Origin: Candidatus Syntrophocurvum alkaliphilum
GTDB lineage: Bacteria > Bacillota > Syntrophomonadia > Syntrophomonadales > Syntrophomonadaceae
Direction of reading: 5' to 3'
Length of the DNA stretch: 64,000 nt
NCBI RefSeq assembly: GCF_009734445.1
Contig: NZ_CP046457.1
Location: 1,296,001-1,360,000 of the forward strand
The notes below the pieces were generated by a model, which saw nothing but the letters and a program-made list of their open reading frames with translations, was not told where the DNA came from and made no database searches. This document shows positions 18,397 through 61,790 of this stretch, in pieces. Position numbers and translations under genes: made by a program. Numbering within the stretch: the stretch's first letter is position 1; each line of letters starts with the position of its first letter.

Positions 18397-19704
18397 TTAA
18401 AAAACTGTTTGTTCATTTACTTCAGTTGTTAAGGCTGTTAGTGCTTCATCAACAATTCTTTTTCTTAATGCAAACTCTTCGGCTTCTTCTAGATCTGGAT
18501 TTCCTAATGGATGGGGAATGGCTACTGCTGGCACTATTCTATTTGCACCTACTGTTTTTGAAATAGGGGTTATAGTACATATATGCACTGTTGGTATATC
18601 AACTATATCTTCTAATTCTTTTATCATCGTTGCACCACAACGAGTACATGTACCTCAGGTAGAGGTTAAAATTATGCCATCTATATTATCTTTTTTTAAT
18701 TCATTGCCAATCTCGTGGGCATATTTTTTGGCATTTGCTACAGAAGTTCCATTGCCAACTGTACTATAAAAGTAATCATGAAGTTCTCCAATAAGGTTTT
18801 CCTTTTCCATTTGTTTTAGTACATCTACAGGCAGCACTCTATCAGCATCTATATTGGCATAAACAGGGTCATAACCCCCATGTGCTGTTTCAAATTTTTC
18901 TTCTGTAAGGTTATCTATTGTAGAAATAGCATACTTACCATATTTAGATGCACTTGAAGATTCAATTTTATCAGGATTATCTTTAGGTACAATTCCTCCT
19001 GATGTTACTAATGCAATTTTAGCCGTAGTTATATCTTTAATCGGATTTCTTGGTGTTACCCGATCAAATTCAGGCATAGGATATTCAGTAGTAAACTCAT
19101 CACCATTAATTTTTTTTACCAACATATCTACAGCTCTAGTAGAGCCCCTAGTTGGATGGAATATATTCTTTCTAATACCTCTAGGTATATACTTTTCTTC
19201 TTCTGGAATACCTAGTTTTTCATTTTTAGCTATTTTTATAGCTAGCTTAGCCATATCAGGTAAGGCATTACGCATTTTTGCAGCTGAACTTCCTGTTTCT
19301 ACTATAAAAATACTTTTTTTATACAACTCTACTCCTGGATTTTCTTTGTACATACCAGTAACTACAGGTATATTTAATTTTTCTTGTACAGCAGCACATA
19401 CAGCACCACAAGCAATGCCATATCTACCAGCATTAAACGCTGGACCCGCTATTAATAAATCTGGTTTTAGCTGTTCAATCATTGATAGCAGTTGTTCAGT
19501 TGCTTTTTCAATATTTTCATTGAAATAAGAATCACCACAAATAACAGTTCCAACTATTTTAAATTCATTACCAAGTGCTTGTACTAGAGGATTACCAGGA
19601 CCAACAGCTTCTTCCTTAACAAATGGCTCTATATTAGCTTTTTCCTCACCACCTATTTGTCCAAAAAACTGATTTAAATAATGAACTACTCGGATTTGTT
19701 CCAT
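18397..19704 (-). CDS. grdB: Glycine reductase selenoprotein B, GrdB (Sec at codon 350)
   Basis: GrdB is the substrate-activating selenoprotein of glycine reductase. It carries the selenocysteine that receives the carboxymethyl group of glycine. The frame is interrupted only by a TGA at 18655-18657 (codon 350), in the context ILTSTUGTCTRCGATM. This is the family's UXXCXXC redox motif, so the TGA is read as selenocysteine and the gene is not broken. Both parts together give 435 residues, the normal length. The N-terminus MEQIRVVHYLNQFFGQIGGEEKA and FNAGRYGIACGAVCAAVQEKL are typical. AAAGGAG precedes the ATG. A SECIS hairpin is expected just 3' of the UGA but I could not fold it here. Confidence 0.95.
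18655..18657 (-). other. Selenocysteine UGA codon in grdB
   Basis: This is an in-frame TGA at codon 350 of grdB. It is followed by GGT ACA TGT ACT CGT TGT, so it encodes the U of a UGTCTRC motif. The reading frame continues for a further 85 codons with full family similarity. Confidence 0.93.
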
Positions 19705-19717
19705 ATTTCCAACTCCT

Positions 19718-20191
19718 TTAAGCAGGTTGTCCTGCTTGAGCTCTTATTTCATTCATTTCTTTTTTAATATCATCTACTTCTAAAACCATTTCCATCATTT
19801 CAATCTGCTCTTCGTAAACATCTTCAGATACTAAATCTTTTAATTCGAATATATGGTAAACCTTTAATTTAAGTGCTACGTTTGACAAGGGACCAGCAAA
19901 GGTTGGATCACCAGCTATACATGTTTCTGCAGTTAATCCAGCAGATTCCGCCTCAGCAGCACCAATAATTATTACTACATTTTCTGGAGAGTGTTTATCT
20001 GCTATTTCCTTAACTTTAGATTGATTAGCCATATCCATGGCTCCAGCTGCAGTTCAAACAAAGCATTCTGTACTACTAAAAAGTATTTCTCCACCAATTG
20101 TCTCCATACATTCTGCTATTGATGGTGCTGGTATTCCATCTCTATCTCCTAATACACATATTTTCTTATTTTCAAAAAATGTTTTATCCAT
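19718..20191 (-). CDS. grdA: Glycine reductase selenoprotein A, GrdA (Sec at codon 46)
   Basis: GrdA is the small selenoprotein that carries the carboxymethyl group between proteins B and C. Reading from the ATG at 20191 (ribosome binding site GAAAGGAAG) gives [20 protein letters not shown]. An in-frame TGA at 20054-20056 follows at codon 46, in the context [15 protein letters not shown], the invariant CXXU motif of GrdA. Read through, the protein is 157 residues, as expected. [32 protein letters not shown] supports the family. If UGA is treated as stop, only a 106-residue fragment remains, so automatic annotation may miss the start. It lies between grdE and grdB. Confidence 0.95.
20054..20056 (-). 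other. Selenocysteine UGA codon in grdA
   Basis: This is an in-frame TGA at codon 46 of grdA, directly after TGC TTT GTT. It gives the CFVU redox motif that is invariant in this family. Confidence 0.95.
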
Positions 20192-47154: not shown

Positions 47155-49680
47155 TCATAATTTATTTTCCCCTTCAATTATAGAGGAAAGTCCTAGAAGT
47201 CTTTGGGCTGTAATAACTGCTTGCCTAGCATCTTCCGAATATGCATCTGCTCCTATTTTATCTGCATATTCCTGATTTAACACTGCTCCTCCTACCATCA
47301 CTCTGCAATTTAACTGCTTTTCTTTAACACCTTCTATAATTTCCTTCATACGAGGCATAGTTGTTGTCATTAATGCACTTAAGCCAATAATATCAGCTTT
47401 TTCTTCTTCTGCTCTTTGTAGTATTGTTTCAGCGGGGACATCTTTACCTAAGTCTATAATTTTAAAACCATAGTTTTCCAATAATACACATACAATATTT
47501 TTACCAATATCATGTATGTCCCCTTCAACTGTAGCCATAACTATTACTCCCTGGTTACTAGTATCTGAATCATCAAAGTATGATTTTATAACTGCAAAAG
47601 CTTTTTTCATGCTTTCAGCAGCCATCATTAGTTGAGGGAGAAAATATTGCTTTTTATCATATAACTCCCCAGCTTTTTCAATACCAGGAATTAAGGCTTG
47701 ATTTACAACTTCAAGAGCCGGTATATTTTCTTTCTCTACTGCATTTATTACTAAAGATTGTATGTTATCTACGTTTCCTTCTAAAATGGCTTTACTTAAA
47801 TTATTCTTTACATTATTTTCAACTATAGTATTTTTATCATCTGTTATTTTTACTTCCTTTTGTTCTGCTTTATTTTCACTTATGATATCTGGTAAATTGC
47901 ATTTTTCACATATTGTGTGTCTTAAACCAATATTATCACTTGGTTGGTATTCTTTATAATTTTCAATATATTGAGTAGCATTAGTATCACGATTTAATAG
48001 TACGGCTGCTGCTCTTGTTGCTTCCATCATTTTTTGGTCAAAAGGATTAATTATTGGTAAATCAACTCCTCCATACCAAGCCATTGATAAATAAGTAGAG
48101 TTTAATATATCTCTAGCTGGAAGTCCATGTGATACATTACTAATACCTAATACAGTTCTTACATTTAAATTTTCTTTGATAGATTGAAGTGCCTTGATTG
48201 TCTCCATTACCTGAGTCTGTTCAGCACTAGCTGTTTTAACCAAACAATCTATATATATATCCTCATCACGAAGACCATATTCTTTTGCCCTCTGATATAT
48301 TTTTCCTGCTATTTTAACTCTATCCTCTGCCTTATCGGGTATCCCAGTTTCATCTAAACATAACCCAAGTATTGCGGCTCCATATTTTTTTGCTATAGGC
48401 AATAGTTCAGATAAAGCCTTTTCCTCACCAGTGGTTGAATTTATTAAAGGTCTACCAATAAAGTTTTTTAATCCTTCTTCCACTGCATTTAAATTGGTAG
48501 AATCTATAACTAGTGGCACATCTATCGCCGATTGTATAGACATAATTGCTTTTTTCATAGCTTCAGCCTCGTCTATACCAGGTACCCCCATATTTACATC
48601 TAAAATAGGAGTTCCTACTTGTACCTGTTTCTTGGCTTCTTCTATAACCATTTGCATTTTTCCATCTTTTATATCTTGGGCTAAATTTTTTCTAGCTGTT
48701 GGATTTATTCTCTCTCCAATAAAGGCTAAGGGCTTATCATCTCCAATTATTAAGTGTTGAGATCTAGAAGCAAATGCAAATAACTTTTTAGATGTATGCT
48801 TTCTTGGTGATAAACCTTTAACAGCATTTGACATAGCTTTAACATGGGTAGGAGTAGAACCACAACAACCTCCAATAATGTTAGCACCGGCATCACTTAA
48901 TCTTATTGCATATTCAGCCATTTCTTCAGGTGAATCTGGAAATATAGTTTTATCGTCAATCAATCTAGGTAAACCAGCATTTGGTTCAACAGATAAATAA
49001 CCACTAGTATAATTAGCCATGGTAGATATGATAGGTAATAACTCTTTTGCACCACCAGAGCAATTTGCACCTATAGCAAGCGGGGATAATGCCTCTAATA
49101 TGATTAAGGCAGTTACTGGATCAGTTCCCATCATAGTTCTTTCGCCATCTTCAAAAGTCATATGTGCTAAAACTGGTAAGCTAGTATTTGAGCGGATGGC
49201 TATTAGTGCTGCACGCATTTCACCTATATCAGTCATAGTTTCAATAGATATTAAATCAGCCCCAGCTTTTTCACATGCAATAGCTTGTTCTTTATAAACA
49301 TTATATAAATCATTAAATTCTACCTCTCCTACTGGTTTTAACAATTTTCCAGTAGGACCTATAGAGGCAGCAACAAATGCTTTATTATTTGCACTTTGTT
49401 TTGCTATTCTTACTGCTTCTGTATTTATTTCAACAACACGTTCTCCAAGTCCAAATTCATCAAGCTTGTATCTGTTCCCTCCAAATGTATTAGTTTGAAT
49501 TATATCTGAACCAGCTTCCACATACTGCTTATGTATTTCAAATAAAACTTGTGCATTTTCAATTCCATATAATTCAGGGCACATACCCGGCTCTAATCCA
49601 TTTTCCTGGAGCATTGTTCCCATTGCGCCATCTAGTATTAAAATTCTCTCTTTTAATAATTGTTGTATATCTGTTTTCAA
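47155..49680 (-). CDS. metH: Cobalamin-dependent methionine synthase lacking the reactivation domain
   Basis: The 841-residue protein transfers the methyl group of methyl-THF to homocysteine through cobalamin. Domains: homocysteine methyltransferase (residues 1 to about 290, with LDGAMGTMLQENGL and the zinc ligands NCSGG and GGCCGSTPTH), pterin-binding domain (about 310-590, FIGERINPTARKN), B12 cap domain (about 630-710), and B12-binding domain with the DXHXXG motif VEGDIHDIGKNIV. It stops at about 841 residues, so the C-terminal AdoMet reactivation domain of the E. coli enzyme is absent, as in several anaerobes. A separate reactivase would be needed and none is nearby. Confidence 0.93.
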   Translation of the reverse strand: MKTDIQQLLKERILILDGAMGTMLQENGLEPGMCPELYGIENAQVLFEIHKQYVEAGSDIIQTNTFGGNRYKLDEFGLGERVVEINTEAVRIAKQSANNKAFVAASIGPTGKLLKPVGEVEFNDLYNVYKEQAIACEKAGADLISIETMTDIGEMRAALIAIRSNTSLPVLAHMTFEDGERTMMGTDPVTALIILEALSPLAIGANCSGGAKELLPIISTMANYTSGYLSVEPNAGLPRLIDDKTIFPDSPEEMAEYAIRLSDAGANIIGGCCGSTPTHVKAMSNAVKGLSPRKHTSKKLFAFASRSQHLIIGDDKPLAFIGERINPTARKNLAQDIKDGKMQMVIEEAKKQVQVGTPILDVNMGVPGIDEAEAMKKAIMSIQSAIDVPLVIDSTNLNAVEEGLKNFIGRPLINSTTGEEKALSELLPIAKKYGAAILGLCLDETGIPDKAEDRVKIAGKIYQRAKEYGLRDEDIYIDCLVKTASAEQTQVMETIKALQSIKENLNVRTVLGISNVSHGLPARDILNSTYLSMAWYGGVDLPIINPFDQKMMEATRAAAVLLNRDTNATQYIENYKEYQPSDNIGLRHTICEKCNLPDIISENKAEQKEVKITDDKNTIVENNVKNNLSKAILEGNVDNIQSLVINAVEKENIPALEVVNQALIPGIEKAGELYDKKQYFLPQLMMAAESMKKAFAVIKSYFDDSDTSNQGVIVMATVEGDIHDIGKNIVCVLLENYGFKIIDLGKDVPAETILQRAEEEKADIIGLSALMTTTMPRMKEIIEGVKEKQLNCRVMVGGAVLNQEYADKIGADAYSEDARQAVITAQRLLGLSSIIEGENKL

Positions 49681-50435: not shown

Positions 50436-51587
50436 TTAATGAATTGTAGGTAAAGAAGTAACTTCACCCCGATGATTTTGCAATATATATTCTTTTTCAT
50501 TTTTATCCTTGATATAGTAATCAGGCATTAAAGGAATCTTCCCAATATTAGTAGCTATTACATACATTGGTTGAGCAAGACCAGATGTGTGACCTCTAAG
50601 GGCATCTCTTATTAATTCAGCCCCTTTTTCAATAGGAGTTCGCAAGTGATCTATTCCTGGTGCTGCTTCTAAATAAAAAACATAATAAGGCCTAATTCTA
50701 ATATTTAAAAGACTCTCGTGTAACTGTTTAAATGATTCTACATCATCATTAATACCTTTTATTAATACAGCTTGGTTTCCTACATTGATACCGCATGTTA
50801 ATAAATCCCAAACAGCTTTAGCTAATTCATTTGTTATCTCTTTTGCATGATTGCATTGAGTATTCAACCAAATAGGTACTCTATGATATTCACCTAAAAC
50901 CTTTCTAAGACCTGGTGTAACTCTATGAGGTAATACTACAGGTAATCTACTACCAAATCTTATCATTTCTATATGAGGTATTTCTCTTAATTTTCTAATA
51001 ACATATTCAATTCTATCATCAGGTAATAAAAGGGGGTCTCCACCTGTAACTAATACTTCTCTTATTTCATTGTGTTCACTTATCCATTCTAGACCTTCGT
51101 CTATATCAAAACGTAATTCTAAAGATTCATCTACTACTAACTCTTTTCTAAAACAATGTCTACAATAAATACCACAAGCATTAACGACTGTAAATGCTAC
51201 TCTATTTTGATATTGTCTAGCAATAGTATCTGGTCTTTCTTCTTCACCTGATCTATTTTCTTTGAATATTAGATAATCTTCAATACCATATTTATTTTCT
51301 TGTTCATATTTAGATGGTACAACTTGCTTACGAATTGGACAATTAGGGTCATTTCTATCCATTAAAGATGCAAAGTAAGGAGTAGTCCCCCATTTTGCAG
51401 TTGTATGGATTATAGCTTCATGTTCTTCATCTGTAATATTAATATATTTTTCTAATTTCTCTAATGTATTAACTTGATTTCTATATTGATATTTCCATTC
51501 TTCTATTGTATCATTTTCTTCTTTTAGATAATTATTAAAATTATAGTTTTCTGTGTAAGTGGGAACATTTAATTGACATTCTAACAT
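50436..51587 (-). CDS. KamA-family radical SAM aminomutase
   Basis: This 383-residue protein belongs to the lysine 2,3-aminomutase family. The radical SAM cluster motif is CGIYCRHCFRKEL (CX3CX2C, about residues 137-149). It is followed by EVLVTGGDPLLLPDDRIEYVIRKLREIPHIEMIRFGSRLPVVLPHRVT. The PLP lysine is probably in TNIGKIPLMPDYYI near residue 352. It is about 30 residues shorter than the clostridial lysine enzyme. The substrate could be lysine, glutamate or another amino acid. No lysine fermentation genes (kamD, kamE, kdd) or beta-lysine acetyltransferase gene lie nearby. Confidence 0.88.
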   Translation of the reverse strand: MLECQLNVPTYTENYNFNNYLKEENDTIEEWKYQYRNQVNTLEKLEKYINITDEEHEAIIHTTAKWGTTPYFASLMDRNDPNCPIRKQVVPSKYEQENKYGIEDYLIFKENRSGEEERPDTIARQYQNRVAFTVVNACGIYCRHCFRKELVVDESLELRFDIDEGLEWISEHNEIREVLVTGGDPLLLPDDRIEYVIRKLREIPHIEMIRFGSRLPVVLPHRVTPGLRKVLGEYHRVPIWLNTQCNHAKEITNELAKAVWDLLTCGINVGNQAVLIKGINDDVESFKQLHESLLNIRIRPYYVFYLEAAPGIDHLRTPIEKGAELIRDALRGHTSGLAQPMYVIATNIGKIPLMPDYYIKDKNEKEYILQNHRGEVTSLPTIH

Positions 51588-51607: not shown

Positions 51608-51645
51608 TTTTAAAAATACCTCCGTTTATGCAACGGAGGTATTTT
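51608..51645 (-). terminator. Terminator after the glutamine-rich gene
   Basis: AAAATACCTCCG pairs perfectly with CGGAGGTATTTT around a 9-base loop, 18 bases beyond the stop of the glutamine-rich gene. It isolates that gene from the kamA-like gene downstream. Confidence 0.85.
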
Positions 51646-51662: not shown

Positions 51663-51854
51663 CTATTGTTGTTGTTGTAACTGTTGTACTTGTTTTTGTG
51701 CTTGTTGCAATTGTTGTTGTAGCTGGCCATATTGTTGTTGTTGCTGTTGTTGTAGTCCACCTTGTTGTTTTAATTGCTCCATTTGTTGTTGAGCTTGTTG
51801 TAGCTCTTGTTGAATTTGTTGTTCGATTTGCTTCTTTTGTTGTTGATTCATCAT
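51663..51854 (-). CDS. Glutamine-rich low-complexity small protein
   Basis: The 63-residue product contains 37 glutamines (59%), with short runs of up to seven Q broken by Leu, Lys, Glu, Ala and a single Tyr. It has no membrane segment. A ribosome binding site GGAGGA stands about 11 bases before the ATG, and a perfect terminator follows the stop, so it is probably a true gene. Its low complexity arises from CAA/CAG triplets. Heptad-like spacing of Leu and Ile could give a coiled coil or aggregation-prone fibre. Function is unknown. A small spore-coat or assembly protein is one possibility. Confidence 0.7.
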   Translation of the reverse strand: MMNQQQKKQIEQQIQQELQQAQQQMEQLKQQGGLQQQQQQQYGQLQQQLQQAQKQVQQLQQQQ

Positions 51855-52025
51855 TGTTAAATCATTCCTCCATTTTTTTATTTTTTGTTTGTGTTACGTT
51901 TATATAGTCTGTAATTTTGCTAAATCATATTCAAAATAATAAACGAAAAAATATAAAGTTTTTGCTACAATATACATATTTGTAATTTTTTTCTGTATGG
52001 AGGAGGAGTTGTAACTACTTTTCAA

Positions 52026-53555
52026 CTAAATATTCCAATACTTGCGATCAAGGCTTCTATACTGAATTGCTTCTGCTATATGATCAACTTTTATATTTTT
52101 AATATTATTTAAATCTGCTATTGTACGAGCAATTTTGAGAACTCTATCATATGCTCTAGCTGTCATATTTAGTTTAGTAAAAGAAATTTTTAATAATTGC
52201 TCTGATTTTTCATCTAATTTACAATGATTTCTTACTTGTGCTGGATTCATTTGAGAATTTAAGTTAATATTGGTATTTTTAAATCTTTTAATTTGAATAT
52301 CTCGTGCATATACTATATCTTCTCTAATATTTTTTGAAGTATCTTCACTTTTTTCTTCAGTGTTAGTTAATTCTTCATATTTAATTCTAGGCACCTCAAC
52401 ATGTAAATCCATTCGGTCTAATAAAGGGCCACTAATACGACTAAGATATCGATGAATTTGAAGAGGAGAACAGCGGCATTCTATATCAGAACCAAAATTG
52501 CCACACGGACAAGGGTTCATACTACCAATCAAGGAAAAATTTGCAGGATAAGTATAGGTCGAGTGAGTTCTAGCAATAGTGACAGTTTTATCTTCTAATG
52601 GTTGCCTCAAGGATTCTAAAACATCCCGATTAAATTCAGGCAATTCATCTAAAAACAAAACTCCATTTTGGGCTAGACTAATTTCACCTGGTCTAGGAAC
52701 TCTTCCACCACCGATAATACTAGCAGCTGATGCATTTTTGTGAGGGGAACGAAATGGTCTTGTTGTTATTAAAGGAGTATCAGAATTAAGCAGATTAGCA
52801 ACTGAATATATTTTTGTGGTTTCTAAAATTTCGTTTCTAGTCATTTCTGGCATTATACCTGGTAATCTTTTAGCTAACATTGTTTTTCCACCCCCCGGCG
52901 GACCTATTAACAATGCATTATGTTGGCCTGCAGCCGCTATTTTCAAAGCCCTTTTAGCTGACTCTTGACCTTTTACCTCTGCAAAATCCAGAGGGAATTT
53001 GTTAGTAGTTGTTATTTGAGGAGATTTTACGATTTGTAAACTTGTATTACCATATAGAAAATTAATCAGTTCTGTTAAATGGGATAATCGATAAATATTT
53101 GTATCATTTATTAGTGCAGCTTCTTCTTCATTTTCATAGGGTACAACTAATTTGTTATCGTCATACTTAGCTAACTCAATAGCCATAGGTAAGACACCTG
53201 GAACTTTTCTTACACTTCCATCTAGAGATAATTCACCTACAAAAAAATAGTTGCTAATATTATTATCCAATTCTTGCCATGACATAATAATCCCAGCTGC
53301 TATTGCTAAATCAAAATGACTACCTTCTTTTTTCATATCAGCTGGAGCTAAATTAACTATTATCTTTCTGTTGGGAAACTTTAAACCTGAATTTTTTATA
53401 GCTAGTTTAACTCTATCTCTAGCTTCTTTAACCGCAGTTGAGGCAAGACCAACTATCTCAAAACCAGGAAGTGCATTCTGAATATCTACCTCTACTTTAA
53501 CTGGTTCGGCTTCAACACCATTTAAAACCATAGTATTAACTGTTGCTAACATCAC
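52026..53555 (-). CDS. comM: YifB/ComM-type Mg-chelatase-like AAA+ ATPase
   Basis: The 509-residue protein begins with the Lon-like domain VNTMVLNGVEAEPVKVEVDIQNALPGFEIVGLASTAVKEARDRVKLAIKNSGLKFPNRKIIVNLAPADMKKEGSHFDLAIA. The AAA+ module has Walker A LLIGPPGGGKTMLAKRLPGIMP and EISLAQNGVLFLDELPEFNRDVLESLRQPLED. The zinc-like GSMNPCPCGNFGSDIECRC segment follows, and a C-terminal helical domain closes it. In Vibrio and Haemophilus, ComM drives branch migration during natural transformation. Here the role is inferred. Confidence 0.94.
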   Translation of the reverse strand: MMLATVNTMVLNGVEAEPVKVEVDIQNALPGFEIVGLASTAVKEARDRVKLAIKNSGLKFPNRKIIVNLAPADMKKEGSHFDLAIAAGIIMSWQELDNNISNYFFVGELSLDGSVRKVPGVLPMAIELAKYDDNKLVVPYENEEEAALINDTNIYRLSHLTELINFLYGNTSLQIVKSPQITTTNKFPLDFAEVKGQESAKRALKIAAAGQHNALLIGPPGGGKTMLAKRLPGIMPEMTRNEILETTKIYSVANLLNSDTPLITTRPFRSPHKNASAASIIGGGRVPRPGEISLAQNGVLFLDELPEFNRDVLESLRQPLEDKTVTIARTHSTYTYPANFSLIGSMNPCPCGNFGSDIECRCSPLQIHRYLSRISGPLLDRMDLHVEVPRIKYEELTNTEEKSEDTSKNIREDIVYARDIQIKRFKNTNINLNSQMNPAQVRNHCKLDEKSEQLLKISFTKLNMTARAYDRVLKIARTIADLNNIKNIKVDHIAEAIQYRSLDRKYWNI

Positions 53556-56131: not shown

Positions 56132-57085
56132 TTATCTTTCATTTATATGATCTGCAAGATCGCTTATTGATTCAATTCCTAATGCATCAGCATCAGCTTG
56201 GCGCATCATTATTGTATAAGTGTTGTTAAATGGAGCATAGTCTAACCATACTAAATCATTTTTCTCTAAGTCTTCTTGTTTAACTGCTTCATAACACTCT
56301 TGAGAATCTGTAATTGCTTCTTCGTGCTCAAGGTAGGTTAACCATGCAGTTCCAGTGTATTCCCAATAAATATCTACATCACCATTTAGTAATGCTTCAC
56401 GTACTACTACGCTTCCACTTAAGTTTGTATTATCTTCAACATCAAAACCCGCATCTTCTAATACTGCTATAGTAATTGCTCCAAGTAATAGCTGCTCAGT
56501 AAATTCTTTAGAACCAACTGAAATTTCACCTGCATTTTCAGCCTGTTCTCCGGTTAGGATTCCTTCACTATTTAACCAATCTACAGCAACCTGTGTTACA
56601 TCTTTACCATCTACATCTACTGAAGCATTTAGTTCAAGCATGGTATCTGTGTCTAAAGCATCACTTACTGGTTGCATTAATTCTTCTAACTCAGGATATT
56701 GTTCAATTACGTCTGTACGTACTACTGGCGCAGGATTGTAAACCGGGAAGAAGTTTTTATCATCTACAAGGTTTACTAAATCAAAGGCTGCTATACGTCC
56801 ATCAGTTGAGAATCCCATAGCTGCTGCTACCTGGTGCTCTCTTAAGGCACCATATGTAATACCTAAGTCCATAACTTCAACATCATCAAATTCAAAACCA
56901 TATACTTGTACTAGCTCAGGAAGTCCATCTGGTCTTACTGAAAATTCATGGTCCGTAGCAAATACCCAGTCATCAATTTCACCTGGTGCACCAGCTTGAC
57001 CAGCACAGCCAACTAATAGTAGTGCAAAAACACTAATGATAGCTACTAAAGTTGTCATCTTTTTGGATTGTTTTAAAGATAGCAT
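56132..57085 (-). CDS. Glycine betaine/osmolyte-binding lipoprotein, circularly permuted (copy 1)
   Basis: This 317-residue lipoprotein (lipobox LLLVGC, Cys27) is the ligand-binding part of an OpuC/ProX-type osmolyte transporter, held outside the membrane. The lobes are in swapped order. Residues about 38-177 (FSVRPDGLPELVQVYGFEF, FSTDGRIAAFDLVNLVDDKNFFPVYNPAPVVR) correspond to the usual C-terminal half. Residues about 187-317 (ISVGSKEFTEQLLLGA, DIYWEYTGTAWLTYL, YAPFNNTYTIMMRQADA, ISDLA) correspond to the usual N-terminal half. A short linker, LTGEQAENAGE, joins them. The start at 57085 is set by GGAGGGG. It is the last gene of its four-gene operon. Confidence 0.9.
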   Translation of the reverse strand: MLSLKQSKKMTTLVAIISVFALLLVGCAGQAGAPGEIDDWVFATDHEFSVRPDGLPELVQVYGFEFDDVEVMDLGITYGALREHQVAAAMGFSTDGRIAAFDLVNLVDDKNFFPVYNPAPVVRTDVIEQYPELEELMQPVSDALDTDTMLELNASVDVDGKDVTQVAVDWLNSEGILTGEQAENAGEISVGSKEFTEQLLLGAITIAVLEDAGFDVEDNTNLSGSVVVREALLNGDVDIYWEYTGTAWLTYLEHEEAITDSQECYEAVKQEDLEKNDLVWLDYAPFNNTYTIMMRQADADALGIESISDLADHINER

Positions 57086-57107
57086 ATAAATCCCCTCCAT
57101 TTTTAAA

Positions 57108-57839
57108 TTAAGTAATCTTTATACCCCTTTGTTCTAGAATTGCTAATAAATGATCGAAAGTTAGTGCTAATAATGCACTTAATATACATCCTACTAACAG
57201 TAATGATAATCGTTGTACCTGAATCCCAGTTACTATTAAGTGTCCTAGTCCTCCAGCGCCTATGAATGTAGCCAAGGTTGCGGTTCCAACATTTATTACT
57301 ACAGCGTTACGAATACCTGCCATTATTACAGGAAATGCTAATGGCATTTCTATTTGGTATAATATCCTATAGTTTGGCATTCCCATACCTTTAGCTGCTT
57401 CAATTACACCTGGTGGTACACTTTTTATTCCAGCATATGTGTTTCTTAAAATTGGTAGTAATGAATAACACCATAGAGCAAAAACTGCTGTATAAAATCC
57501 TAGGCCAAATATTGTGAAAAATAATGCTATGATTGCTAAACTCGGTACTGTTTGAGCTACATTAACTGTATTCTCAATAAATGGGCCTATTGCTCCTACT
57601 TTTTCCCTGCTTATTATTATTCCTAGAGGAATAGCTGTTAGGATAGCTGCTATGGAAGATACTAATACCATGGTTATGTGTTCCTGAGTCAATCGCAATA
57701 TATAGTCATAACTCAACACCCTAGCTGCCATAGCACCTCCGGGATTGTTTACAAAGTAAATTGTTATTCCTATTCCTAAACCAATAAATAATATTACAGG
57801 AATAAATTTTAACCATAAGTTATTACTATGCTGCATCAT
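57108..57839 (-). CDS. Osmolyte ABC transporter permease (copy 1, promoter-distal)
   Basis: This 243-residue membrane protein has five or six helices and the permease coupling motif EAAKGMGMPNYRILYQIEMPLAFPVIMAGIRNAVVINVGTATLATFIGAGGLG, typical of OpuBB/OpuCB/OsmW-type subunits for glycine betaine, choline or carnitine. Its start overlaps the end of the ATPase gene by 14 bases. It is nearly identical in DNA to the copy at 61059-61790. Confidence 0.93.
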   Translation of the reverse strand: MMQHSNNLWLKFIPVILFIGLGIGITIYFVNNPGGAMAARVLSYDYILRLTQEHITMVLVSSIAAILTAIPLGIIISREKVGAIGPFIENTVNVAQTVPSLAIIALFFTIFGLGFYTAVFALWCYSLLPILRNTYAGIKSVPPGVIEAAKGMGMPNYRILYQIEMPLAFPVIMAGIRNAVVINVGTATLATFIGAGGLGHLIVTGIQVQRLSLLLVGCILSALLALTFDHLLAILEQRGIKIT

Positions 57840-58938
57840 CTTTCATCAGCTCCAATATATATGCTATGGTTAGTACTCCTTTAGGTTCTTGGTTGTCGTT
57901 TAATACTACAGCATATTTTTCTCCTGTATTTAACATTGCAGATAGTGCATCTCCTAATGTTGCTTCATCTTGAACTAAGCTACTGCATGGTTTTATTAAG
58001 CTTTCTAAGGCTTTATTTTCCTTGTTGTTTAGTATGTGCTTAGTTTCTAAGATTCCACAAAATCTTAAGTTTTCATCAGTTACCGGTAAAGCTTTTGCTT
58101 TGCTATCTAGTAGTTGTTTGGATGTTATTTCTGATATGGTGTTTAGGTTTATGCTTGGTAATTTTGTATTTAGTACATCTTTTACTTTGATTAAGTTTAA
58201 TCTTTTGATTGAGCGATTGCTTCCAATTAATGATTCTACAAAGCTATCTGCTGGAGAACTTAATAAGTTGTTGGGTTCATCATACTGTATAAGGTTGCCT
58301 TCGCGCATTACCGCAATTTTATCTCCCATTTTTATTGCCTCATCTATATCATGAGTTACAAATATTATGGTTTTGTTTATCTCTTTTTGTAGTCTTATAA
58401 ACTCATTTTGTAAGTGGGTTCTTGTTATTGGATCAACTGCTCCAAATGGTTCATCCATTAATAATATAGGTGGATCAGCTGCTAAGGCTCTTGCTACTCC
58501 CACTCGTTGCCTTTGACCACCACTTAGTGCATCTGGTTTCCTGTTTCTATAAATTTCAGGATCTAATCCAACTAAATTTAATAGTTCATCTATCCTTGAA
58601 TTTATTTTTGATTGCGACCACTTTTTCTCTTTTGGTACTGTTGCAATGTTTTCTGCTATTGTCATATGTGGAAATAAGCCTATTTCTTGTATTACATAAC
58701 CTATGTTTTGGCGCAGTTCTATTGGGTTTAGATTGGTTGTATCAGAATCATTTATTTTTATTATTCCTGATGTTGGTTTTACTAAGCGATTTATCATCTT
58801 CATCGTGGTTGTTTTACCACAACCTGATGGACCTACAAATACACATGTTTCTCCTTCGTTTATTTGCATATTTAAATTATTAACTGCTGGTACTTCTGAA
58901 CCCGGAAAAACTTTATGCAGATTCTCTAGTTTTATCAA
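57826..58938 (-). CDS. Osmolyte ABC transporter ATP-binding subunit with CBS domains (copy 1)
   Basis: The 370-residue ATPase has Walker A GPSGCGKTTTMKMI (about residues 37-50), signature ALSGGQRQRVGVARALA, and Walker B ILLMDEPFGAVDPITRTHLQNEF, followed by the switch TIIFVTHDIDEA. A C-terminal tandem CBS region (about residues 245-370, including LPVTDENLRFCGILETKHIL and DALSAMLNTGEKYAVVLNDNQEPKGVLTIAYIL) is the usual ionic-strength or c-di-AMP sensing module of OpuA/OpuC ATPases. It is identical in protein sequence to copy 2. Confidence 0.95.
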   Translation of the reverse strand: MIKLENLHKVFPGSEVPAVNNLNMQINEGETCVFVGPSGCGKTTTMKMINRLVKPTSGIIKINDSDTTNLNPIELRQNIGYVIQEIGLFPHMTIAENIATVPKEKKWSQSKINSRIDELLNLVGLDPEIYRNRKPDALSGGQRQRVGVARALAADPPILLMDEPFGAVDPITRTHLQNEFIRLQKEINKTIIFVTHDIDEAIKMGDKIAVMREGNLIQYDEPNNLLSSPADSFVESLIGSNRSIKRLNLIKVKDVLNTKLPSINLNTISEITSKQLLDSKAKALPVTDENLRFCGILETKHILNNKENKALESLIKPCSSLVQDEATLGDALSAMLNTGEKYAVVLNDNQEPKGVLTIAYILELMKDDAA

Positions 58939-58957
58939 AGCACTACACCTCCTTTTT

Positions 58958-59578
58958 TTAGACTCTAGTGCGATGTTCTGCCCACTTTAATAGTCGGTCT
59001 GCTACTATTGCTACAATTGAAACAAAAATTGCTCCTACTAGTACTGAGTTCATATTCCACTGTGAGATTCCTCGGAATATGAATTCTCCTAATCCACCTG
59101 CTCCTACAAAGGATGCTATGGCTCCTATTCCTATTATCATTACTACTGATGTTCTAATTCCTGCCATTATAATAGGCCATGCAAGTGGTAGTTTGATTTT
59201 GCGCAATATATTAGTTTCATTCATTCCCATACCTTGTGCAGCTTGTATTACAGCAGGATCTATCTCCTCTATACCTGTATATGTGTTACGTACTATTGGT
59301 AATAAAGAGTATAGAACCAATGCTATTACACCTGTTTTAAAACCTATGCCAAATAGGGGTATTAACAGGCCAAATACTGCTAAGCTTGGTATGGTCATTA
59401 TTACTTGGCATATGTAAAGTACACCTCTTGCCAAGACTTGGTAATAGCTAATTAGGACACCTAATCCTACTCCTATTAGCACTGCAAAACCTACAGATAC
59501 TCCGACTAATACAATATGCTCTGCTGTTAATCTGATTACATTGTCTAGATTGTTAATAAAGTAATACCATAAATCCAT
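58958..59578 (-). CDS. Osmolyte ABC transporter permease (copy 1, promoter-proximal)
   Basis: This 206-residue permease is the first gene of the operon and pairs with the second permease to form the channel. It carries IQAAQGMGMNETNILRKIKLPLAWPIIMAGIRTSVVMIIGIGAIASFVGAGGLGEFIFRG, the coupling segment of the family, and five helices. The gene is preceded by a long leader that holds a riboswitch-like structure. Ribosome binding site sequence is weak (GGTGAT). Confidence 0.93.
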   Translation of the reverse strand: MDLWYYFINNLDNVIRLTAEHIVLVGVSVGFAVLIGVGLGVLISYYQVLARGVLYICQVIMTIPSLAVFGLLIPLFGIGFKTGVIALVLYSLLPIVRNTYTGIEEIDPAVIQAAQGMGMNETNILRKIKLPLAWPIIMAGIRTSVVMIIGIGAIASFVGAGGLGEFIFRGISQWNMNSVLVGAIFVSIVAIVADRLLKWAEHRTRV

Positions 59579-59696
59579 ATAATCACCATTTTTGTGTGAA
59601 GCGGGTAAGAAAATAAAGAAAGAAAGGCATAGAGCGTATGAACCTAGACCTATTGTTTAGTCTAGACCTTAAAGTATGTATCACATTCTTTCTCAC

Positions 59697-59812
59697 AACG
59701 CCTACGAAGTTAGCTGACGGATTCGGACTGTAAGGTAGCCCTACCACTTACGTGGACTCACCCCATTAATTCGGTTCCCCCGCTTCTCATATTTTTGAGA
59801 ACTCGGCGTTTA
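59697..59812 (-). promoter_or_regulatory. ydaO-type c-di-AMP riboswitch aptamer upstream of operon 1
   Basis: Read on the minus strand, the leader starts AACGCCGAG, runs through GGGGGAACCGA, GGGGTGAGTCC, GGTAGGGCTACC and TCCGAATCCGTCAGCTAAC, and closes with TTCGTAGGCGTT. It shows the conserved blocks of the ydaO/yuaA family, including the outer AACGCC/GGCGTT stem and the GUAGG/CUAAC core. This family binds cyclic di-AMP and usually switches expression off. Control of an osmolyte importer fits known targets well. A downstream stem with a T-rich end (59600-59696) could be the switching terminator. Confidence 0.85.
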
Positions 59813-59822
59813 ATTCATAAGT

Positions 59823-60070: not shown

Positions 60071-61036
60071 TTATTGTCTTTGATTAATAAGTTCAGCAAG
60101 ATCGCTTATTGATTCAATTCCTAATGCATCAGCATCAGCTTGGCGCATCATTATTGTATAAGTGTTGTTAAATGGAGCATAGTCTAACCATACTAAATCA
60201 TTTTTCTCTAAGTCTTCTTGTTTAACTGCTTCATAACACTCTACAGGATCGGTAATTGCTTCTTCGTGCTCAAGATAGGTTAGCCATGCAGTTCCTGTGT
60301 ATTCCCAATAAATATCTACATCACCATTTAGTAAGGATTCACGGACAACTACACTTCCACTTAAGTTAGTGTTATCTTCAACATCAAAGCCAGCATCTTC
60401 TAATACTGCTATAGTAATTGCTCCAAGTAATAGCTGCTCAGTAAATTCTTTAGAACCAACTGAAATTTCGCCTGCATTTTCAACTTGTTCGCCAGTTAAA
60501 ATTCCTTCACTATTTAACCAGTCTACAGCAACCTGTGTTACATCTTTATCATCTACATCAACTGCTCTATTTAGTTCAATCATGGTATCTGTGTCTAAAG
60601 CCTCACTTACTGGTTGCATTAATTCTTCTAACTCAGGATATTGTTCAATTACGTCTGTACGTACTACTGGTGCAGGATTGTAAACCGGGAAGAAGTTTTT
60701 ATCATCTACTAGGTTTACTAAATCAAAAGCTGCTATACGTCCATCTGTTCCAAACCCCATTGCTGCAGAGACTCTGTTTTCCTGTAAGGCACCATATGTA
60801 ATGCCTAAATCCATAACCTCAACATTATCAAACTCAAAGTCATATACTTGTACTAGCTCAGGAAGTCCATCTGGTCTTACTGAGAATTCATGGTTCGTAG
60901 CAAATGTCCATTCATCAATTTCACCTGGTTCACCTGGTGCACCAGCTTGACCAGCACAGCCAACTAATAGTAGTGCAAAAACACTAATGATAGCTACTAA
61001 AGTTGTCATCTTTTTGGATTGTTTTAAAGATAGCAT
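60071..61036 (-). CDS. Glycine betaine/osmolyte-binding lipoprotein, circularly permuted (copy 2)
   Basis: This 321-residue paralogue of the protein at 56132-57085 has the same lipoprotein signal and the same swapped lobe order. Compared with copy 1 it has about 25 substitutions and a 4-residue insertion after the lipid anchor (a GEPGE repeat). Differences cluster in the first lobe (for example GALREHQVAAAMGFST against GALQENRVSAAMGFGT), and the C-terminus ends LAELINQRQ instead of LADHINER. The changes could shift ligand affinity or choice. The start at 61036 is set by GGAGGGG. Last gene of operon 2. Confidence 0.9.
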   Translation of the reverse strand: MLSLKQSKKMTTLVAIISVFALLLVGCAGQAGAPGEPGEIDEWTFATNHEFSVRPDGLPELVQVYDFEFDNVEVMDLGITYGALQENRVSAAMGFGTDGRIAAFDLVNLVDDKNFFPVYNPAPVVRTDVIEQYPELEELMQPVSEALDTDTMIELNRAVDVDDKDVTQVAVDWLNSEGILTGEQVENAGEISVGSKEFTEQLLLGAITIAVLEDAGFDVEDNTNLSGSVVVRESLLNGDVDIYWEYTGTAWLTYLEHEEAITDPVECYEAVKQEDLEKNDLVWLDYAPFNNTYTIMMRQADADALGIESISDLAELINQRQ

Positions 61037-61058
61037 ATAAATCCCCTCCATTTAAAAA

Positions 61059-61790
61059 TTAAGTAATCTTTATACCCCTTTGTTCTAAAATTGCTAATAA
61101 ATGATCGAAAGTTAGTGCTAATAATGCACTTAATATACATCCTACTAACAGTAATGATAATCGTTGTACCTGAATCCCAGTTACTATTAAGTGTCCTAGT
61201 CCTCCAGCGCCTATGAATGTAGCCAAGGTTGCGGTTCCAACATTTATTACTACAGCGTTACGAATACCTGCCATTATTACAGGAAATGCTAATGGCATTT
61301 CTATTTGGTATAATATCCTATAGTTTGGCATTCCCATACCTTTAGCTGCTTCAATTACACCTGGTGGTACACTTTTTATTCCAGCATATGTGTTTCTTAA
61401 AATTGGTAGTAATGAATAACACCATAGAGCAAAAACTGCTGTATAAAATCCTAGGCCAAATATTGTGAAAAATAATGCTATGATTGCTAAACTCGGTACT
61501 GTTTGAGCTACATTAACTGTATTCTCAATAAATGGGCCTATTGCTCCTACTTTTTCCCTGCTTATTATTATTCCTAGAGGAATAGCTGTTAGGATAGCTG
61601 CTATGGAAGATACTAATACCATGGTTATGTGTTCCTGAGTCAATCGCAATATATAGTCATAACTCAACACCCTAGCTGCCATAGCACCTCCGGGATTGTT
61701 TACAAAGTAAATTGTTATTCCTATTCCTAAACCAATAAATAATATTACAGGAATAAATTTTAACCATAAGTTATTACTATGCTGCATCAT
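61059..61790 (-). CDS. Osmolyte ABC transporter permease (copy 2, promoter-distal)
   Basis: The protein sequence is identical to that at 57108-57839 (243 residues, same permease motif). The DNA differs at very few positions. The start overlaps the ATPase gene by 14 bases exactly as in operon 1. Confidence 0.93.
   Translation of the reverse strand: MMQHSNNLWLKFIPVILFIGLGIGITIYFVNNPGGAMAARVLSYDYILRLTQEHITMVLVSSIAAILTAIPLGIIISREKVGAIGPFIENTVNVAQTVPSLAIIALFFTIFGLGFYTAVFALWCYSLLPILRNTYAGIKSVPPGVIEAAKGMGMPNYRILYQIEMPLAFPVIMAGIRNAVVINVGTATLATFIGAGGLGHLIVTGIQVQRLSLLLVGCILSALLALTFDHLLAILEQRGIKIT

Follow-up and report, generated by a model that had tools for sequence, protein, structure and literature searches.

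SspE, the gamma-type SASP of spore-forming hosts, is a small, Gln-rich protein encoded by a single gene. Bacterial LEA-like proteins and hydrophilins are small, hydrophilic, low-complexity amphipathic helices linked to water stress, and the Com_YlbF-domain proteins, Qrp/YheA among them, are helical. Part of the text of one report calls the Com_YlbF-domain protein Qrp/YheA of Staphylococcus aureus a 'glutamine-rich protein' (PMC12445100), and for eukaryotic polyQ and polyQ/polyA sequences a passage of another proposes coiled coils from Gln-rich heptads (PMC4049302). Low-complexity regions are described as uncommon in bacteria in a section of a further paper (PMC8004648).

Here we describe a 63-residue, Gln-dominated protein of "Candidatus Syntrophocurvum alkaliphilum" B(2M), a syntroph of the Syntrophomonadaceae that comes from a hypersaline soda lake and was cultivated at pH 9.5 in 2 M Na+ (PMC7005122). 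The genome is closed (2,360,781 bases), and the gene lies in a 64,000-nucleotide stretch of it, hereafter the window. Like SspE, the protein is small, Gln-rich, the product of a single gene and found in a spore-forming host, but no SASP family match, protease site or sporulation promoter was seen and it carries a strict coiled-coil heptad. It shares small size, hydrophilicity and low-complexity amphipathic helices with LEA-like proteins and hydrophilins, yet has a heptad rather than an 11-mer repeat, almost no charge and no LEA match in Pfam. Like Qrp/YheA, as portrayed in the part of the source cited above, it is small, Gln-rich and (by prediction here) helical, whereas none of the ten Q-rich proteins considered below matches Com_YlbF in Pfam and their Gln content is far higher. 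With the eukaryotic coiled coils, as set out in the passage cited, it has in common Gln-rich heptads with a Leu/Ala seam; the bacterial proteins, however, are free-standing and 63 to 126 residues long rather than tracts inside large proteins, and the tract in the window is an imperfect repeat in which expansion was not seen. Finally, the locus recalls leader-peptide attenuators, since in the window a codon-biased small ORF is followed by a hairpin and then an amino-acid enzyme gene, but the orientation to that enzyme gene, kamA, is not kept in relatives.

The Q-rich gene and its expression signals

The features of the locus, all on the minus strand, are as follows.

52026..53555, minus: yifB (Mg chelatase-like AAA ATPase), upstream neighbour, given as context (TIGR00368 above cut-off)
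51867..51871, minus: ribosome-binding site GGAGG, 12 nt from the first ATG and 15 from the second (sequence)
51663..51854, minus: Q-rich ORF, 63 aa with 37 Gln, stop codon counted (ORF list, relatives)
51765..51845, minus: predicted helix 1, residues 4-30, with I10, I14, L18, A21, M25 and L28 (AlphaFold2, heptad test)
51750..51764, minus: turn with Gly32-Gly33, residues 31-35 (sequence, AlphaFold2 model)
51672..51749, minus: predicted helix 2, residues 36-61, with Y42, L45, L49, A52, V56 and L59 (AlphaFold2, heptad test)
51613..51645, minus: terminator-like hairpin between the Q-rich ORF and kamA (folding; the sequence occurs once in the window)
50436..51587, minus: kamA-family radical SAM aminomutase, 383 aa, next gene downstream (Pfam LAM_C and Radical_SAM; TIGR00238)

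The first-pass annotation had given 37 Gln among 63 residues (59%) at 51663-51854, which is exact, though it was silent on the strand; the ORF runs from 51854 to 51663, and yifB, the Q-rich ORF and kamA follow one another on the minus strand. It had also credited the gene with its own expression signals. Those for translation and termination were found, the GGAGG standing a little far from the start at 12 nt, and a hairpin of 14 pairs with a 5-nt loop beginning 17 nt past the TAG stop codon. None of 200 shuffled sequences folds equally well (z -5.0); T runs are present on both sides of the hairpin, while the T-tail rule of the terminator scanner is satisfied on the plus strand only. A promoter did not emerge, as the minus strand from yifB to the Q-rich ORF yielded no sigma-70-like sequence. 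Searches against Rfam gave nothing at gathering score near the Q-rich ORF and no riboswitch reaching cut-off beside kamA.

The Gln codons of the ORF comprise 34 CAA and 3 CAG, compared with 277 CAA and 73 CAG in those frames of the window that run for 250 codons or more from stop to stop, so that the ORF shows the local bias in a somewhat stronger form. Other frames of the tract are open as well, including those on the plus strand, antisense, and at +1; ORF length by itself therefore proves nothing, because a CAA repeat stays open in other frames. The repeat is very imperfect (58-70% matches in TRF), and the whole genome has only one CAR-hexamer place, at this ORF. The ORF is a real small gene: the heptad spacing of its hydrophobic residues and the existence of relatives with the same gene plan, both described below, take it beyond chance.

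Several other features of the window were recorded. Two near-duplicate osmoprotectant-type ABC transporter clusters, named from reading of their ORFs, occupy 56132-59578 and 60071-61790 (minus strand), with a c-di-AMP riboswitch between them, upstream of the first, at 59683-59818 (minus; 98.3 bits); together with kamA they form a salt-related neighbourhood within a few kb of the Q-rich gene. Selenoprotein genes resembling subunits of glycine/betaine/sarcosine reductase, each with one in-frame TGA, lie at 18397-20191 (minus), with a SECIS_4 match at 18617-18654 (minus) inside the larger. An 841-aa ORF at 47155-49680 (minus) resembles, by reading, a cobalamin-dependent methionine synthase without an obvious C-terminal reactivation domain.

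A coiled-coil heptad around a Gly-Gly turn

The hydrophobic residues of the window protein fall in the 3-4 spacing of a heptad on both sides of Gly32-Gly33. Shuffling the sequence reproduced this order with p 0.00012 when two registers were allowed (12 of 100,000 shuffles) and with p 0.00043 for a single register, and the ten Q-rich proteins tested each show a heptad as well, unmatched in 5,000 shuffles apiece. A single-sequence AlphaFold2 model places two helices around the GG turn (mean pLDDT 82, pTM 0.54), and a model of the 126-aa relative L037 contains helices at residues 2-25, 29-83 and 94-125 (pLDDT 81). We give these models little weight, because Gln/Ala/Leu heptads folded without an alignment readily yield helices. 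Comparison with the PDB gave no match by fold (Foldseek) and nothing convincing by sequence.

The protein thus has the 3-4 hydrophobic heptad that marks the coiled-coil class. The heptad, the predicted helices and a single Asn set it apart from disordered Gln/Asn-rich domains, which lack amphipathic order. Its longest pure Gln run is seven residues, it contains four Lys and no Ser, Thr or Phe, and its N terminus shows no signal-like sequence or other secretion signal.

A small family of Q-rich proteins

Protein searches with the window ORF against sets of 41, 63 and 398 genomes, the last being a sample of the phylum, returned the ORF itself and, in the 398, one convincing match, G108 (E 0.008). 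This genome belongs to another family than the window host, encodes a 91-aa Q-rich ORF and was found before kamA entered the question. Five further loci with matches at E up to 0.01 were dropped: no small Q-rich ORF was found at L181, L184 and L186, and the ORF at L182 and L183 was of a different kind.

Further members were sought with a DNA pattern for QQAQ[QE][QE][LIVMF][QE]Q. It was written after four kamA-linked members had been seen, and the counts carry that choice. It matched 12 of the 398 phylum genomes, in agreement with the first-pass statement that such proteins are rare in bacteria; four of the 12 (G167, G092, G416 and G139) clearly hold something else. Translation yielded proteins of the window kind, which we call A-type, in G000 (the window genome), G108, G419, G355 and G435, a second type (B-type) in G140 and G175, and an unplaced protein in G170. 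The same pattern was run on the 48 genomes behind 50 of 80 named kamA loci, the genomes of the remaining 30 loci lying outside the scan, and matched three: G445, which is L037, the MAG Anaerovorax odorimutans BM5_bin.11; G447, Clostridiaceae bacterium BRH_c20a; and G450, at the same contig position as G140. Besides the window protein, A-type proteins are thus known from six Bacillota-type genomes. These are 88-126 aa long and built on QQAQQQL heptads, including proteins of 90 aa in G419, 91 aa in G447 and 126 aa (within a 158-aa open frame) in L037, so that length across species ranges from 63 to 126 aa, the species of the window being represented by one genome.

Homology was assessed by alignment against shuffles that preserve the heptad, permuting hydrophobic and non-Q polar residues inside their respective positions. 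No shuffle in 1,000 aligned as well as G419 with each of G108, L037, G447, G355 and G435, nor did any in 2,000 for the window protein with G108. Against the other five A-type members the window protein is marginal (p 0.02-0.10), and it is without the central NPQ(Q/K) motif common to the six longer members. Gene plan recurs along with sequence. A hairpin just past the stop follows all ten Q-rich genes (z -2.4 to -8.5), and GGAGG stands 7-12 nt before the start in nine; among the A-type, whose plan is a Shine-Dalgarno sequence, a short ORF and a hairpin after the stop, the corresponding counts are seven of seven and six of seven (G419 being the exception). CAA:CAG ratios range from 34:3 at a GC content of 0.33 to 20:29 at 0.45 with the protein pattern constant. 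Because the Gln codons drift with genome GC while the residue stays, selection acts on the protein and not on the DNA repeat. The alignments and heptad tests place the window gene in a small family of predicted helical, Gln-coated proteins whose likeness goes beyond composition and heptad. In the first-pass annotation, loss of the frame in related genomes was to count against a gene; frame, composition, heptad and gene plan all recur in relatives. Its suggestion that Q-rich small genes would be found at the same locus held for their existence, beside kamA or elsewhere, and failed for the position, as none of 29 yifB loci of relatives is adjoined by a Q-rich ORF.

The B-type proteins of G140 and G175 (L211:1321-1593 and L212:1354-1590 (+); about 78-90 aa, 'MDKI..ANQ.VQ.ALQ.SQQYMQEIG') are homologous to each other (0 of 1,000 shuffles) but were not counted as members, with heptad-preserving p values against the window protein of 0.94 and 0.04, respectively; the G170 protein was also unsupported and was left aside. 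In G092, the pattern marks a 61-aa, 48% Gln ORF beside rpsT (L207:1471-1656, minus), perhaps a small spore protein, with no match in Pfam or NCBIfam. A CAR-hexamer scan of 54 family genomes gave matches in 18, those translated lying in unrelated proteins. Short Q-rich tails occur on proteins read as ferritin-like or CotF-like in other Syntrophomonadaceae (L151, L152, L155 and L163). A phage origin found no backing, with no match by tblastn in phages and no relative in viral contigs, where the pattern fell within Q-rich parts of large phage proteins.

None of the ten Q-rich proteins reaches cut-off for any Pfam or NCBIfam model. DUF2564 gives weak, sub-cut-off matches to three members (E 0.005-0.05), which we treat as a lead only. 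No description of a Q-rich coiled-coil family was found in the open-licence literature, and going by these three sources the family is undescribed.

Linkage to one clade of kamA

The downstream neighbour scores above cut-off for Pfam LAM_C and Radical_SAM and for NCBIfam TIGR00238 and below the cut-offs of the NCBIfam lysine, glutamate and arginine aminomutase equivalogs. Asp293 and Asp330, lysine-binding residues of lysine 2,3-aminomutase (2A5H), align with Glu307 and Ala345 of the window KamA, and we therefore refrain from naming lysine or glutamate as its substrate.

We scanned 80 named kamA loci, nine further ones and the window, which after removal of five duplicates leave 85 distinct loci. 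An A-type gene stands next door in four of these (window, G108, G419 and L037), whose hosts are several unrelated anaerobes. The two genes are co-directional in the window, divergent in G108 and G419 and convergent in L037. In the kamA tree all four loci fall inside one Bacillota clade of 12 rows (support 100/99) without forming a single sub-clade, the four changes required being no better than with labels shuffled over the whole tree. By genome, five of the 12 rows have an A-type gene, two the second type and five neither; the pattern was absent from the 40 other named-kamA genomes scanned, which lie outside this clade. Genomes with a second-type protein also hold a kamA of the clade. In G355, G435 and G447 the A-type gene is not adjacent to kamA.

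Association by genome points the same way. A kamA match at E below 1e-150 is present in nine of the 398 phylum genomes. With the window genome excluded, A-type genes occur in two of eight genomes with such a kamA and two of 389 without (Fisher p 0.002), and Q-rich genes of all types in four of eight and three of 389 (p 2e-6); both tests ignore relatedness and rest on a DNA pattern written after the four linked members were known. The kamA of G108, 177 bp from its Q-rich ORF, is 78% identical to that of the window, whereas other genomes of the window host's family mostly have only copies of 36-45% identity; because of this difference, kamA has probably been passed between lineages. Beta-amino acids are described as osmolytes, and Na+ riboswitches as present on ablA and eam genes of some bacteria, in parts of two reports (PMC1224877, PMC9337991).

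A candidate Gln-faced helical bundle

How might such a protein work? The product would be a cytoplasmic, almost uncharged alpha-helical hairpin with a narrow Leu/Ile/Val/Met/Ala seam at heptad positions a and d and Gln at all others. The seam could drive self-association, giving helical bundles or filaments that expose nothing but Gln on the outside; being neutral and strongly hydrated, that surface would keep the protein in solution and folded even where sodium is very high. Because of that solubility, we think its role would most likely be structural or protective, in salt stress or dormancy. The reading we favour, tentatively and at somewhat less than even confidence, is accordingly an independently transcribed small gene for a self-associating, Gln-faced helical bundle with such a role.

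Alternative readings

We consider it unlikely, though worth weighing, that the protein is instead an amino-acid reserve for dormancy, a clostridial counterpart of the gamma-type SASP that would be made in the forespore and degraded at germination to glutamine and glutamate. Small size, a very high Gln content and few other residues would suit a store, and Spo0A is present in the window host and in all eight candidate hosts of the 398-genome sample; it is, however, present in 345 of the 398 anyway and does not discriminate. The Q-rich ORF of G092 lies between rpsT and a holA-like gene, near a gene read as spoIIP. Against this, Pfam and NCBIfam yielded no SASP family match, whether with the window protein (E up to 1) or with nine relatives (E up to 0.1), and no GPR-type cleavage site, judged by that protease's recognition motif, was seen by eye in the window protein, with its lack of Ser, Thr and Phe. 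Nor does a sporulation sigma promoter recur upstream of nine of the genes, where a scan for a sigma-G-like consensus gave one site, in G108 (0.07 expected), and none in the window. A strict heptad would be needless for a store. The positive evidence for a spore reserve amounts to the Gln content and the spore-forming hosts.

The prion-like or coat-forming resemblance proposed in the first-pass annotation, here taken as a functional Gln-rich amyloid, fits the structural analysis poorly. Its appeal lies in the 59% Gln and in Gln runs, which extend to seven residues and no further; we judge it improbable because the hydrophobics keep a coiled-coil heptad, to which are added the Gly-Gly turn and the helices predicted for both the window protein and L037. 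No secretion signal was seen, and neither the window protein nor its relatives match a coat family in Pfam.

Attenuation of kamA by a Gln-sensing leader peptide is very improbable as a family function. The window does present the expected layout, an ORF rich in one codon with a hairpin 17 nt past its stop and kamA 25 nt beyond the hairpin, and where the hairpin lies Thr_leader scores 29.4 bits, a weak match short of its gathering score of 55. Yet co-direction with kamA is confined to the window, the other three linked loci being divergent or convergent, and homologues reach 126 aa. Those loci retain a hairpin just past the Q-rich stop, as do members far from kamA; since it persists whatever the orientation or distance, it belongs to the Q-rich gene, and the attenuator reading fails. 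Attenuator use restricted to the window genome alone may occur.

A spurious ORF in a CAA microsatellite from which no protein is made, suggested by the self-opening repeat with its open antisense and +1 frames and by the missing sigma-70-like promoter up to yifB, is hardly credible given the imperfection of the repeat, its single place genome-wide, the heptad order, and a protein pattern and gene plan conserved in other families with synonymous drift.

Implications

The tentatively favoured Gln-faced bundle can be extended to include the neighbouring enzyme: the family would have travelled, by inheritance or by transfer, with one clade of KamA enzymes that form beta-amino acids and would work with them in osmotic adaptation, the bundle protecting the cytoplasm at high Na+ or organising the enzyme or its product. 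We regard this extension as quite doubtful. Whatever the role, a clean Leu/Ala seam under a near-pure Gln surface would offer a compact test bed for the choice between coiled coil and amyloid, and genes of such a kind are likely to be missed by gene finders and by similarity searches that filter low complexity. If the link to kamA is functional, the salt response built on beta-amino acids would gain a protein component in this family.
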